Below are positions 4,040-34,681 of a stretch of DNA of 64,000 bases, in pieces. A program made the translations under genes and the position numbers. The stretch is from Uliginosibacterium aquaticum (lineage in GTDB: Bacteria; Pseudomonadota; Gammaproteobacteria; Burkholderiales; Rhodocyclaceae). The stretch is from positions 1 to 64,000 of the forward strand of contig NZ_JABCSC020000001.1 of the NCBI RefSeq assembly GCF_012972705.2, written 5' to 3'. A model generated the notes under the pieces. That model saw nothing but the letters and a program-made list of their open reading frames with translations, searched no databases and was not told the DNA's origin. Every line of letters starts with the position of its first letter. Position 1 is the stretch's first letter.

Positions 4040-4642
4040 TTAAGCCAGCTTCTGCTCAGCTGCCGCGAGGCTGGCGTAGCCATAGAGTTTCGCGGTGTGC
4101 TCCATGGTCACGGTGGTGAGGTTGCGCCCCTCCTCCTGATATTCCTCCACCATGCGCAGGTAGGCGCGCAGGGTGTCTTCGGAATAGGTGCCAAGCTCGC
4201 CGCGCAGATAGGTTTCGAAGGAGGTGCCCTGCGGGCCGTCCTCCTCGGTGCGGATCAGGCGAGCCTGATCCGACATGCGCGGCCACTCGCGCGCGAAGGC
4301 TTCACGCCATTCCAGCTGAATTGCGATGACGCGCTCGATCGTGCGCCGCTGCCAGTCGCTCAGCGGCGGCAGCAGATGCGCGAAGCCGGCGTATTCGGCG
4401 GGTGCGGTGGAGGCCATCATGCGCGCGTATTTCTCCTGCACCAGATTGCGACCGAGCTGCGCGGCGCGCTTGAGGTCGGCGTGGTAGCTGGCGAGCGTGC
4501 CATTGTCCCAAGCCAGAAACTGGCTCTTGCGCATGATCTCGAAGGTCTCGAAGTTGTCCTGACAATTGGCGCGGCCGCCTTCGTTTTCAACCTTGTCGAA
4601 GGCCTGCCATTCGAGTTGCACGATGTCGTCGATGAGGCTCAT
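4040..4642 (-). CDS. DUF4125 family protein
   Basis: A 200-residue soluble protein matching my recollection of DUF4125, a family without known function. I chose ATG 4642 (MSLIDD) because AGGAAA precedes it at good spacing; the upstream extension in the same frame is translated REP repeat. It contains a conserved-looking core around KSQFLAWDN and DLKRAAQLGRNLVQEKYARM. The next gene upstream on the same strand encodes a TPR-DUF4037 protein. DUF4037 and DUF4125 are, as I recall, found together or fused in other bacteria, so the two probably act in one process. Three REP units lie between them. Confidence 0.8.
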   Translation of the reverse strand: MSLIDDIVQLEWQAFDKVENEGGRANCQDNFETFEIMRKSQFLAWDNGTLASYHADLKRAAQLGRNLVQEKYARMMASTAPAEYAGFAHLLPPLSDWQRRTIERVIAIQLEWREAFAREWPRMSDQARLIRTEEDGPQGTSFETYLRGELGTYSEDTLRAYLRMVEEYQEEGRNLTTVTMEHTAKLYGYASLAAAEQKLA

Positions 4643-4663
4643 GGGGTTTCCTGTGTGTGTGTT

Positions 4664-4765
4664 CCGTAGGTGCGGCTTCAGCCGCACGCATGGATGGCGA
4701 AGCTTGCGTAGGGCGGACTTCAGTCCGCCGCCACGCGTGGTGTGCGGCTAAAGCCGCACCTACGG
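4664..4765. repeat. REP/BIME cluster with three units
   Basis: Three copies of a palindromic unit are visible: 4666-4687 and 4707-4729 in forward orientation and 4741-4764 inverted. Each has the head GTAGG followed by a GCGG-CTTCAG-CCGC type hairpin. A linker with ACGCGTGG precedes the inverted unit; the same linker recurs at the other two clusters in this window. The inverted unit's GTAGG head contains the TAG stop codon of the TPR-DUF4037 gene. Confidence 0.85.
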
Positions 4766-6493
4766 GTTGGCGAGAATGCTGTCGACATGCGCTTCAAGAT
4801 AGGACTCGCCCGGCTGACTGAAGCCCTGCGCGATGATTTCCCGCAGCACGGCGGCGCAGATTTCTTCGACCAGCGGCGTAGCCTCGGCCGCCAGGGTCTG
4901 CGCCAGTTGTGTGAGTTGGCCGTGCAGCGCGGCGAGCCTGGGCAGGCTGCCGACGCTGTGCACCAGCCACTTGTCGGCCGGGGTATAGCGCCGGTTCAGC
5001 ACATGAATCGCCGCGCAGGCCTGGCGGATGAACTCGGCCTGCGCCATCAGCGCAGCGGCCGGCTCGCCGCGCGTCAGCGCGCGCGGCAGGTTGTACTGCC
5101 CGCTCTGCGCCATCTTCGCCACGGCCTGCGCAAGCTTGCGCCGTACGATGCCATCGGGATAGTAAGCGGCCAGCGCAGCACGGATACGGCTGAACTCGCC
5201 GGCCGGGTCGGAGAAGACTTCGCCATTGGTGACACAGGCCAGCAGTGGCTCCGGAATCTGCAGCCAGTCCGCTTCGGACTGCGGCAGCTCCGCCGCGCCG
5301 AGGAATTCGCGGTAGAAACCGGAGATACTGAACACGCCCACGCGCTGGCCGCTGCGGCGCCCGGGCCGGCGCGCCGGGAAGCCGGCGAACTCGGGCGGCA
5401 GGCGCTCGTAGTCGGCCTGCATCTGCTTGCCTAAGGCCGCGTAATCCTCATCCGTGAGCCAGATGCAGAAGCCGGGGCCGAAATCGTGATCGCGGGACTG
5501 CTCGTCATCGAAGCCGAAGCACTCCGAGCCGTGGCCCACCAGACCCACGGCGATGCGGTGTGCAATCGGCGCGTAGTCAGCCAGCAGGCTGCCGCGCATG
5601 GCTTCGTAGTACTGGCGCGCGAGGGCCAGGCCTTTGAGCTGCGGGCGCAGTGCGGCGGCCACCTGCTGCGCCTCGCGCTTGCAGGCTGCACTGCGAGTCG
5701 GGTCGGAGGCTTCAAGCACCAGCGCGAGGCTCTCCAGCATGTCGGCATAAGGCTGGTTCTTGCCGAAGCGCGCCTCGATCTCGCGCAGGGCACGTTCGTA
5801 CAGCGCGGCGGCTTCGCTCGCGTTCCCCTCCTTGAAGCACACCTCGCCCAGCGCGGCGATAGCCGCAGCGTGATGGCCGCTCGGGCGCGGCAGTGCGGCG
5901 AACAGCCGGTCGGCCTCCTCCAGCGCAGCACGCGCTTCGGCGAGCTGGCCCAGGCGCACGCGCGACTGCGCGAGGTTGGTGAGGCTCACCGCCACATCGT
6001 GTTCCGCGCCCGGATTGCTGCGACTGATCGGCAGCGCGGCTTCGAGGAACTGGATCGCGCGGGCGTGATCGCCGGCTTCCTGCCAGGCCAGGGCGAGGTT
6101 GTTGTAGAGCGTGGCGACGAGGAAGGCATCCTGCACGCCCAGCGCGAGGAACATGCGTCCCACTTCTTCGAAGAGCTCGATGGCGCGCTGAAACTGGCCG
6201 TCCGCGCGCCAGGCCGTGGCGACGTTGAGCAGGGTGGTGGCGTAGTGCAGGCTGTTCTTGAGGCCCAGCTCTTCGAGCAGGCCCAACGCCTTGCTGGCCG
6301 CCGCCAGTGAGTCCTTGAAGCGGCTGGTGCTGCGGTAGTAGCCCATCAGCTCGTTGAGCAACGAGAGCACCGCGCCCTTGTCGCCCTCGGCTTCGCCACG
6401 GGCGATGTGGTCGAGCATGAAGGCTTCGACCTGATCGTAGGCGCCGCGCTGGAAAAGGCTGTCGAGCTGCTGCAGGACCTGCTGGATGTCCAT
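4760..6493 (-). CDS. TPR-repeat protein with DUF4037 nucleotidyltransferase-like domain
   Basis: A 577-residue soluble protein. Residues about 1-285 form tetratricopeptide-like helical pairs (for example NNLALAWQEAGDHARAIQFLEAAL near 131-154). Residues about 290-577 match DUF4037. The strand-loop GLVGHGSECFGFDDE followed by SRDHDFGP (GHGSE at 320-324, DHD at 335-337) has the GS...DxD layout of the nucleotidyltransferase fold, so nucleotide or tRNA-like substrates are possible, but activity is unproven. It precedes DUF4125 on the same strand. Its last sense codon is followed by a TAG inside a REP unit, so the present 3' end may have been set by repeat insertion. Confidence 0.8.
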   Translation of the reverse strand: MDIQQVLQQLDSLFQRGAYDQVEAFMLDHIARGEAEGDKGAVLSLLNELMGYYRSTSRFKDSLAAASKALGLLEELGLKNSLHYATTLLNVATAWRADGQFQRAIELFEEVGRMFLALGVQDAFLVATLYNNLALAWQEAGDHARAIQFLEAALPISRSNPGAEHDVAVSLTNLAQSRVRLGQLAEARAALEEADRLFAALPRPSGHHAAAIAALGEVCFKEGNASEAAALYERALREIEARFGKNQPYADMLESLALVLEASDPTRSAACKREAQQVAAALRPQLKGLALARQYYEAMRGSLLADYAPIAHRIAVGLVGHGSECFGFDDEQSRDHDFGPGFCIWLTDEDYAALGKQMQADYERLPPEFAGFPARRPGRRSGQRVGVFSISGFYREFLGAAELPQSEADWLQIPEPLLACVTNGEVFSDPAGEFSRIRAALAAYYPDGIVRRKLAQAVAKMAQSGQYNLPRALTRGEPAAALMAQAEFIRQACAAIHVLNRRYTPADKWLVHSVGSLPRLAALHGQLTQLAQTLAAEATPLVEEICAAVLREIIAQGFSQPGESYLEAHVDSILANP

Positions 6494-6599: not shown

Positions 6600-8099
6600 T
6601 TATTGAAATGCCACCTCGGCGAAGCTTCTGAGCTTGCGGCTGTGCAGCGCATCCGGCCCGCGCTCGCGCAGGATCTCCAGCGCCCGGATGCCGATACGCA
6701 GGTGTTGGTCGACCCGCTCGCGGTAGAAGTTGTTGGCCATCCCCGGCAGCTTGATCTCGCCATGCAATGGCTTGTCGCTCACACAGAGCAGGGTGCCGTA
6801 GGGCACGCGGAAGCGGAAGCCGTTGGCGGCGATCGTGGCGCTCTCCATGTCCAGCGCCACCGCGCGGCTTTGCGAGAAGCGGCGCTGCGGGGTGTTGTCC
6901 GGCAGCAGTTCCCAGTTGCGGTTGTCGGTGGTCGCTACCGTGCCGGTGCGCAGCAGCCCCTTCAGCGCTGCACCCGAGAGGCCGGTCACGTCGGCTACGG
7001 CGGTTTGCAGGGCGAGCTGGATTTCGGCCAGCGCCGGAATCGGCACCCACACCGGCAGGTCTTCGTCGAGCACATGGTCTTCGCGCACATAGGCGTGCGC
7101 CAGCACATAGTCGCCCAGCGCCTGGGTGGTGCGCAGTCCGGCGCAATGCCCCAGCATCAGCCAGGCATGCGGGCGCAGCACGGCGACGTGGTCGGTGATG
7201 GTCTTGGCGTTCGCCGGGCCGACGCCGATGTTGACCATGGTGATGCCGCTGCCATCGGCGCGCACCAGGTGGTAGGCCGGCATCTGCGGCAGGCGCGGCG
7301 GCTGTTTGCCGAGCGCATCCAGCTCGCCCGCCGGCTCGCCGACGCGGCGCGTGATGACGTTGCCGGGCTGGACGAAAGCGAGGTAGGGGCTGGCCGGGTC
7401 ATTCATCGCCTCCAGCCCCATGCGCACGAATTCGTCGATGTAGAACTGGTAGTTGGTGAACAGCACGAAGTTCTGGAAATGCTCGGGCGAGGTGCCGGTG
7501 TAATGGCGCAGGCGCTGCAAGGAGTAATCCACGCGCGGGGCGGTAAACAAGGCGAGCGGATGGGCTTCACCGGGCGCGGTGGCATGGGTGCCGTTGGCGA
7601 TGCCGTCGTCCATCACCGAGAGATCCGGCAGATCGAAGAGATCGCGCATCAACATGCGCCGCTCGGCACTCATGCTGCCTTCGATGTGGTCATAGTCGCC
7701 AAAGGAGAAATGCACCGGAATCGGCTGCGAGCTGATGCCCACTTCCAGCTCCACATCATGGTTTTGCAGCAGCAGACGGAACTGGTCGAGGAAATAGCCG
7801 GCGAAGAGGTCCGGTCGGGTCAGGGTGGTTTCGTAGTGGCCGGGGCCGGCGACGAAGCCGTATGACAGACGCTTGTCAGCGGTACGCGCCTTGGCAACGG
7901 TACTGGTGTGGATGCGCACGAAGGGATAGCAGGCGCGGGCGCGTTCCTCTTCGGCTTCCGGCACGGTTCCGGACACGTATTGCTGGAGGGCTTCGCGCAG
8001 GTGATTGATGCTGGCGTTGTAGATCAGCTGAACCTGGGCCAGAGCAGCTTCGGCATCGGTGAAGCGCAGCGGGGCAATGAAGGGCGGGCGATGGGGCAT
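6600..8099 (-). CDS. amn: AMP nucleosidase
   Basis: A 499-residue cytoplasmic enzyme that hydrolyses AMP to adenine and ribose 5-phosphate, helping to control adenylate pools. The N-terminal half is the AMP-nucleosidase-specific domain. The C-terminal half is the phosphorylase-type fold with GHCAGLR and ALDMESATIAANGF, the substrate-binding Met-Glu-Ser segment of this superfamily. Length fits the family (about 480-500). ATG 8099 is preceded by CGGAGAA; an in-frame upstream extension lacks a ribosome site. It appears monocistronic. Confidence 0.92.
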   Translation of the reverse strand: MPHRPPFIAPLRFTDAEAALAQVQLIYNASINHLREALQQYVSGTVPEAEEERARACYPFVRIHTSTVAKARTADKRLSYGFVAGPGHYETTLTRPDLFAGYFLDQFRLLLQNHDVELEVGISSQPIPVHFSFGDYDHIEGSMSAERRMLMRDLFDLPDLSVMDDGIANGTHATAPGEAHPLALFTAPRVDYSLQRLRHYTGTSPEHFQNFVLFTNYQFYIDEFVRMGLEAMNDPASPYLAFVQPGNVITRRVGEPAGELDALGKQPPRLPQMPAYHLVRADGSGITMVNIGVGPANAKTITDHVAVLRPHAWLMLGHCAGLRTTQALGDYVLAHAYVREDHVLDEDLPVWVPIPALAEIQLALQTAVADVTGLSGAALKGLLRTGTVATTDNRNWELLPDNTPQRRFSQSRAVALDMESATIAANGFRFRVPYGTLLCVSDKPLHGEIKLPGMANNFYRERVDQHLRIGIRALEILRERGPDALHSRKLRSFAEVAFQ

Positions 8100-8160
8100 G
8101 GTGTTTTTCTCCGTGATATTCCAGTCTGGATCAAGCATACCGCATGCCGGGAGATCGTTT

Positions 8161-33526: not shown

Positions 33527-34681
33527 ATGAACTCGCGCTCACACGATCACGCCCCCGCCGCCGCCCCGGATCCCGCCGAGGATGCGCGCGACTTCGACGC
33601 CTTTGCCCAGGATCAGGATCCGCTCGACATTGAGGCGGCGACCTGGGCGCTGCGCCGGCGCAATGGTCTGGACGCAGCGGGCGAGGCTGAACTGGCGGAC
33701 TGGCTGAAGGCGGATCCGCGCCATGGTGCGGCCCTTGAGGACATGGAGCACACATTCGATGAGCTGCGGCATTTGCCCGACGAGCATCTGGCATCCCTCA
33801 GGGCCGGCCTGGGCGAGCGGGCTGCAGGCGCTCCGCCGCAGGCTCCGGCCCCGGCCTGGCCGCCCGCGTTGCCGCGTCCGCCGGCCCGCAACGGCTGGAG
33901 GGCATGGCTGCAGGGCGGCTGGCTGCCGCAGGCCATGGCGGCGGCGCTGGCCTGTGTCGTGGTGGCAGGTGCCTGGCTGGGCTGGCAGCAGTGGCAGCTG
34001 CAACCGGGCTTCGTGCAGGCCTATGCCACCGAGCGCGGGCAGCAGCTCAGCGTGAGCCTGCCGGATGCGGCAAGCCAGGGCAGCACGCTGCAGCTTGATA
34101 CGGCCAGCCGGGCCGAGGTGCGCTTGTTCCGCGACCGTCGCGAAGTGCACTTGCAGGAAGGTCAGGTCATGTTTGTCGTGCATCCGGACGCGCAACGTCC
34201 ATTCCATGTGTGGGCCGGAGGGGTGCGCGTCACCGTGGTGGGCACCCGTTTTTCGGTGCGCCACAGCCAGAGTGGCCGTGATGCCGGCCAGACGGTGGTG
34301 GAAGTAGAGGAGGGACGGGTGCGGGTGGCGCCCGCCAGCGCCGATGCCCGCCTGGCGAGCGTGGAGTTGCATGCCGGCCAGCGTGTGGTGGCGGATGGCC
34401 GCGGCCAGCTCAGCGCGCCCGCCGCGCTGCCGCCCACCGCCGTGGCCCCCTGGCGTGAGGGGCGGGTGAGTTTTGACCAGACGCCGCTGGCCGACGCCAT
34501 CGCTGAGTTCGAGCGCTATGGCCATACCGGCCTGGTGGTGCGTGATCCGGCCGTGGCGGCGCTGCCAGTGGGCGGCAGCTACACCTTGCGCCAGTTCCAG
34601 CAGTTCGCCCGGGCCTTGCCGCAGCTTCTGCCCGTGCGGCTGGAGTCGCACGGCGCGCTCACGGAGGTGGTGGCAAGGTAG
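33527..34681 (+). CDS. FecR-type transmembrane sigma regulator
   Basis: A 384-residue inner-membrane regulator. The N-terminal DUF4880 domain (EAATWALRRRNGLDAAGEAELADWLKADPRH) binds the sigma factor, one membrane helix (AMAAALACVVVAGAWLGW) follows near residue 140, and the periplasmic FecR domain (with VTVVGTRFSVRHS) and DUF4974-like C-terminus receive the signal from the receptor's N-terminal domain. It lies 105 bases after the sigma gene; a TATAGT at 33428-33433 might give it an extra promoter. Confidence 0.92.
   Translation: MNSRSHDHAPAAAPDPAEDARDFDAFAQDQDPLDIEAATWALRRRNGLDAAGEAELADWLKADPRHGAALEDMEHTFDELRHLPDEHLASLRAGLGERAAGAPPQAPAPAWPPALPRPPARNGWRAWLQGGWLPQAMAAALACVVVAGAWLGWQQWQLQPGFVQAYATERGQQLSVSLPDAASQGSTLQLDTASRAEVRLFRDRREVHLQEGQVMFVVHPDAQRPFHVWAGGVRVTVVGTRFSVRHSQSGRDAGQTVVEVEEGRVRVAPASADARLASVELHAGQRVVADGRGQLSAPAALPPTAVAPWREGRVSFDQTPLADAIAEFERYGHTGLVVRDPAVAALPVGGSYTLRQFQQFARALPQLLPVRLESHGALTEVVAR

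Follow-up and report, generated by a model that had tools for sequence, protein, structure and literature searches.

A conserved TPR, nucleotidyltransferase-fold and DUF4125 cassette in Uliginosibacterium aquaticum and its relationship to the putative BssJ and BssG proteins of toluene degraders

Two neighbouring genes at 4040-6493 on the minus strand of Uliginosibacterium aquaticum raise the question whether their products work as one unit and what that unit does. The analysed window comprised 64,000 nucleotides (positions 1 to 64,000 of contig NZ_JABCSC020000001.1). The initial annotation described a TPR array fused to a nucleotidyltransferase (NTase)-like domain and followed by a DUF4125 gene, and both open reading frames were found with the corresponding Pfam matches. 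The first gene (4760-6493, minus strand) codes for a 577-aa TPR-NTase protein, assigned by Pfam, the fold of its relatives and conservation. Kinesin-light-chain-like TPRs form the adaptor part, residues 1-285 (5639-6493, minus strand; TPR_12 in three stretches, E 8e-23). The NTase motif G320-x-G-S...D335-H-D337 (GHGS-x11-DHD, residues 320-337; 5483-5536, minus strand) is invariant in 77/77 cassette NTases. The translation of residues 320-340 is GHGSECFGFDDEQSRDHDFGP, and the GHGSE, DHD and FGP noticed earlier were located exactly there (G320-H-G-S-E ... D335-H-D337-F-G-P). The motif had been attributed to the DUF4037 part; it is indeed an NTase motif, but it precedes the Pfam DUF4037 model (E 8e-32, residues 410-510; 4964-5266, minus strand), which spans the helical C-terminal domain. 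No Pfam family matched the catalytic core before that domain. In a review of HEPN proteins, DUF4037 is listed as a tail of aminoglycoside-NTase-like proteins that are "occasionally fused to TPRs" (PMC3710099). The second gene (4040-4642, minus strand; DUF4125, E 5e-81) codes for a 200-aa all-helical protein with dense invariant polar residues, as judged by Pfam, modelling and conservation.

The pN/pS values of both genes, 0.24-0.33 against two genus relatives, indicate that the genes are real and under purifying selection. The most likely start of the DUF4125 gene is the ATG at 4642, with AGGAAA upstream, rather than the GTG at 4687, which is inside a hairpin repeat. The intergenic stretch (4670-4759) contains three short, perfect, REP-like palindromes, GTGCGGCTTCAGCCGCAC, GCGGACTGAAGTCCGC and GTGCGGCTAAAGCCGCAC (4670-4687, 4713-4728 and 4742-4759), and a near copy occurs at 34634-34651 of the window. 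They are likely a repeat element and no functional part of the cassette. According to Pfam, the neighbours of the window cassette include an AMP nucleosidase and a Band 7 protein, among others. Upstream of the TPR-NTase gene, at a distance of 107 bp and in the same orientation, is the AMP nucleosidase gene (6600-8138, minus strand). The cassette of Uliginosibacterium sp. 31-16 is directly preceded by a chromate transporter gene and a small gene; therefore, the AMP nucleosidase gene looks inserted in the window's lineage and is no conserved partner.

To follow the linkage of the parts, 84,980 GTDB species genomes were scanned, resulting in 253 DUF4125 relatives, and the best 80 of the 253 loci, a set biased toward close relatives, were fetched. 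In these best 80 of 253 loci, the order TPR, NTase, DUF4125 was kept throughout the cassettes. All three parts were encoded in one open reading frame in 17 loci, as a TPR-NTase gene and a DUF4125 gene in 43 and as three genes in 11; the remaining loci were cut by contig ends or were without one part. In several genus relatives the TPR part is a gene of its own. The NTase adjoined DUF4125 in 78/79 of the fetched loci with enough sequence, which agrees with the statement in the initial annotation that the two families are neighbours or fused elsewhere. The window genome is of Rhodocyclaceae type, with Uliginosibacterium and Dactylopiibacterium as its nearest relatives. Among 61 relatives, DUF4125 and DUF4037 were present in the same nine, always adjacent or in one cluster. 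These nine were all eight genomes of the window's genus and one from another genus; no further genome among the 398 sampled in the phylum contained DUF4125. In a Bacillota sample, DUF4125 was found in 6/299 genomes, all six with an adjoining DUF4037 gene, whereas any DUF4037 occurred in 13/299. The gene-neighbourhood survey proposed at the outset thus resulted in a DUF4037-DUF4125 linkage beyond chance, and the case for the cassette parts being one functional unit is strong.

The three-part composition is not fixed. The TPR part is missing from locus L072 and from the version in the toluene (bss) cluster, a lone DUF4125 occurs in L098, five Actinomycetota genomes have a distant DUF4125 gene and no DUF4037, and cassette-type NTases are present in two genomes without DUF4125 (L134 and L135). 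In L135 (6749-12681) the TPR and NTase pair ends an apparent polyamine gene set, presumably for carboxynorspermidine and spermidine synthesis, as recognised by eye from the sequence. In L028 (7034-10591), the fused protein has 1186 aa, of which about 360 are extra residues that separate the TPR part from the NTase part. On a tree of NTase and DUF4125, at least four changes of architecture took place within the one conserved order. The Rhodocyclaceae-type clade and the Bifidobacteriaceae clade are each nested inside Bacillota diversity, which suggests that the cassette was transferred between phyla. Nearly all of the best 80 of 253 loci came from anaerobe-rich groups, namely Bifidobacteriaceae, Lachnospiraceae and other Clostridia, and Desulfovibrionaceae. 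Conserved neighbours were detected within Bifidobacteriaceae only; elsewhere, outside bss clusters, the adjacent genes were unrelated.

For the fold of the NTase part, a natural fusion fragment consisting of NTase and DUF4125 (L031, 527 aa) was modelled with AlphaFold from a 98-row alignment. The mean pLDDT was 94.2, and the pTM of 0.81 suggests a defined packing of the two parts in the model. With VIA, residues 16-324 of this model matched 3c18 (Z 12.3), ANT(4'') (12.1), kanamycin NTase (11.7), LinB (10.6) and ANT(6)-Ib (9.1), the structures 3c18, 6un8, 1kny, 3jyy and 8vxb being those in the range of Z 9-12, and these scores exceeded most other rows. The structural match to nucleotidyltransferases, whose absence was to refute the earlier proposal, was obtained. 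Foldseek gave probabilities of 0.93-1.0 against NTases with a best E of 1.8e-3, and a profile search of the PDB with the NTase alignment resulted in no significant match; because of this modest E value and the lack of a solved relative by sequence profile, the match is one of fold and not of close kinship. The model has the two-domain fold of the Pol beta-type antibiotic-NTase branch, an NTase core with GS...DxD and a helical substrate domain, which is shared with ANT(4''), kanamycin NTase, LinB and ANT(6). Unlike these solved aminoglycoside and lincosamide NTases, to which it has no detectable sequence similarity, the cassette NTase lacks the third catalytic acid and is joined to TPR and DUF4125 by fusion or gene linkage.

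The residues G320, G322, S323, D329, D330, S333, D335, H336, D337 and R384 were invariant in 77 cassette NTases, so that G322 and S323 of the hG[GS] motif and D335 and D337 of the DxD motif were kept in 77/77. In the helical domain Q463, N468, R471, R475, P505 and K508 were invariant in 79 rows and belong to the cassette-specific motifs Q-x-GQYN-xx-R-xxx-R and P-xx-KW. An NTase fold with kept nucleotide and metal motifs is strongly supported. The position of the third acid, on the strand R384-V-G386-V-F-S (5327-5344, minus strand), was placed by sequence alignment and secondary structure (DSSP). It is Gly386 in the window and Gly in 75/77 members, with Arg in the other two. Asp and Glu occupy it in the nearest non-cassette relatives, L117 and L145, respectively, of which L145 was aligned gap-free in both runs and L117 with an insertion; the remoter DUF4037 NTases, for which the strand was aligned in part, show RVDW or PVDL. 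Due to the missing acid in 77/77, the activity is not assured: of the earlier statement that the DUF4037 part transfers a nucleotide, the fold, GS and DHD stood, and transfer itself is an uncertain prediction.

The absent acid may instead mean that the NTase is a nucleotide-binding pseudoenzyme, one that would sense a nucleotide as a signal and control DUF4125 or a TPR-bound client with no transfer, and this would count against the reading of the cassette as one functional complex. Besides the Gly or Arg counts, such a role fits the model, where the Gly equivalent is on the strand, followed by a helix, at which the acid belongs. However, decayed enzymes usually lose catalytic and substrate-pocket residues, and in the cassette GS, both Asp of DHD and the pocket are invariant; in addition, the alignment of this strand in distant relatives is uncertain. 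A pseudoenzyme is considered unlikely on balance. A composite active site, with DUF4125 giving the missing acid, was also considered and is disfavoured, as Gly-type NTases occur in the L134 and L135 genomes without DUF4125.

The suggested structure prediction was also carried out for the window DUF4125 protein alone and gave an all-helical model with pLDDT 95.4 and pTM 0.90. Against the PDB and viral models it had no fold match (best VIA Z in the PDB 4.5, none at 5 or more, and HEPN not among the rows listed), and a PDB profile search with the DUF4125 alignment gave no significant match; the missing match does not prove a new fold. Several weak rows to terpene synthases (Z about 2) were judged to be chance. 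The invariant residues, mostly polar, were E11, N20, C27, Q28, R38, N66, E70, K71, Y72, R128, S141, E143, Y145, E149 and Y153. The lone Actinomycetota proteins keep 30/36 near-invariant positions, and because nearly all residues are retained there, the conserved core serves DUF4125 itself and not the NTase alone. The idea of DUF4125 as a dedicated target of the NTase is accordingly unlikely. About 13 residues after EKYARM are deleted both in the lone actinobacterial proteins (L128-L132) and in the bss version (L141), but not in cassette members.

A toxin-antitoxin role had been mentioned as possible, and in its most specific form DUF4125 would be the toxin and the NTase an antitoxin nucleotidylating it, as in HEPN/MNT (type VII) systems. 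Such systems share with the cassette the two-gene layout, the NTase gene coming first, and the split into a helical and an NTase partner. In contrast to HEPN/MNT, the DUF4125 proteins have no conserved His, Rx4-6H occurring anywhere in only 24/81; the DUF4125 model had no fold match at Z of 5 or more, with HEPN not among the rows listed. The cassette is chromosomal and fixed in 8/8 genus genomes, is permanently fused into one protein in 17 of the best 80 of 253 loci, and DUF4125 exists free of its partner. No cassette relative was found in phage and viral collections, and the only plasmid record matched was a chromosome-sized 2.1 Mb Fusobacterium record. Comparison with known defence models (PADLOC) gave no cassette match; a weak match to TPR (E 0.007) was all that was obtained. 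Both a toxin-antitoxin and a phage-defence role are disfavoured, and the type VII version is very improbable.

A search of the literature under DUF4037, DUF4125 and their Pfam and InterPro numbers yielded no functional report for either family, and in that sense the system is uncharacterised as was stated; it is, however, not nameless, since its members appear to be BssG and BssJ. In the family relative G023 (L141, 3680-14963), DUF4125 and NTase genes are within a longer bss cluster, whose glycyl radical enzyme (864 aa) has a full-length match to TutD/BssA (4pkc, 1861.8 bits). BssA is followed by a NorQ-type AAA protein, a VWA protein, DUF4125, two small genes, the NTase, an SDR/epimerase and an amidohydrolase. 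The two genes between DUF4125 and the NTase code for an unassigned protein and a DUF4258 domain, the latter open reading frame having a weak match to the MqsA antitoxin zinc-binding domain as well. The order in L141 agrees with the published one, bssE, F, G, (P/orfXY), I, J, K, L, in which bssE codes for an AAA+ protein, bssF for a VWA protein and bssK for an SDR (PMC7285207, PMC5874301). The L141 NTase counted from its ATG has 307 aa, equal to the published length of BssJ (PMC5874301), and the published bssJ primers of Magnetospirillum 15-1 translate to VGVFE and APYFKW, which are motifs of the NTase family (PMC7285207). From this length and these peptides, the NTase is identified as the predicted BssJ. 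The published bssG primers (MFSQVR, LDEGRN) are compatible with DUF4125; its identification as BssG is less firm, being based for the most part on position.

The L141 pair shares 44% (NTase, with the same motifs) and 33% (DUF4125) identity with the window pair, but in the bss operon the TPR is absent and the order is reversed with genes between, whereas the copy in the window stands alone as a compact cassette. As no bss cluster surrounds it, the window pair represents relatives of BssJ and BssG and not the bss genes themselves. In a limonene degrader, bssE is followed by lrcL (DUF4125) and lrcM (DUF4037); this adjacent, expressed pair of the ring-cleavage operon belongs to the same families and differs from the window pair in its place within a hydrocarbon operon beside bssE (PMC12583861). 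A bssJ insertion mutant of Azoarcus sp. CIB retained growth on toluene and m-xylene; growth was lost in a bssF mutant with a possible polar effect on bssG (PMC5874301). No glycyl radical enzyme gene was found within 10 kb of cassettes outside bss clusters, and for this reason the glycyl radical link is not extended to all members. Two glycyl radical matches were found in the window genome; one was read as an anaerobic ribonucleotide reductase and the other as a probable pyruvate formate-lyase, and both enzymes are common.

The catabolic setting also bears on a two-enzyme small-molecule pathway, in which the NTase would adenylylate a metabolite, DUF4125 would carry out a neighbouring step and the TPR part would only act as a scaffold. 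The bss and lrc members are within catabolic operons, the NTases closest in fold act on small molecules and are built of the same two domains, the cassette-specific invariant residues of the helical domain suggest one fixed substrate, and DUF4125 retains its dense polar core even when alone. Against it, most genomes have no conserved metabolic neighbours, most members have the TPR fused, which would indicate a protein client, and the bssJ mutant grows on toluene. Such a pathway is a possibility of some weight, although an improbable one.

The explanation tentatively preferred, at slightly less than even probability, is one functional complex of a TPR adaptor, an NTase-fold domain with its helical substrate domain, and DUF4125, auxiliary in anaerobic metabolism. 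The TPR part suggests a protein client; the pocket of the helical domain and the conserved core of DUF4125 are suggestive of fixed ligands. As we infer the chemistry, the TPR part would recruit the client, and the NTase part would bind NTP and Mg2+ through GS and DHD; the bound NTP would serve either for modifying one conserved substrate in the QxGQYNxxRxxxR/PxxKW pocket or for reading its state, and DUF4125 would act via its own second pocket on the same client or pathway. The setting would be the maintenance or regulation of anaerobic metabolism, probably as an auxiliary rather than an essential function. The term anaerobic metabolism rests here on taxonomy and the two hydrocarbon clusters, since the neighbours are otherwise unconserved and no glycyl radical enzyme is nearby. 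A bolder proposal, which we regard as a long shot, is that the cassette represents a nucleotide-dependent system of a new class for protein maintenance in anaerobes, with a TPR-recruited client, modified by a two-carboxylate NTase, and DUF4125 as an enzyme whose all-helical fold is new; in hydrocarbon degraders the same core would serve glycyl radical enzymes.

With a high-confidence prediction and no solved match, DUF4125 lends itself to structure determination. The proposed identification of the cassette core pair with BssG and BssJ of the toluene cluster is new here, and this membership would connect an open question of toluene degradation with a cassette that is accessible to study in the form of one fused protein. 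The pair is shared by Bifidobacteriaceae, anaerobic hydrocarbon degraders and many Clostridia of the gut, and one function would explain genes in all three.
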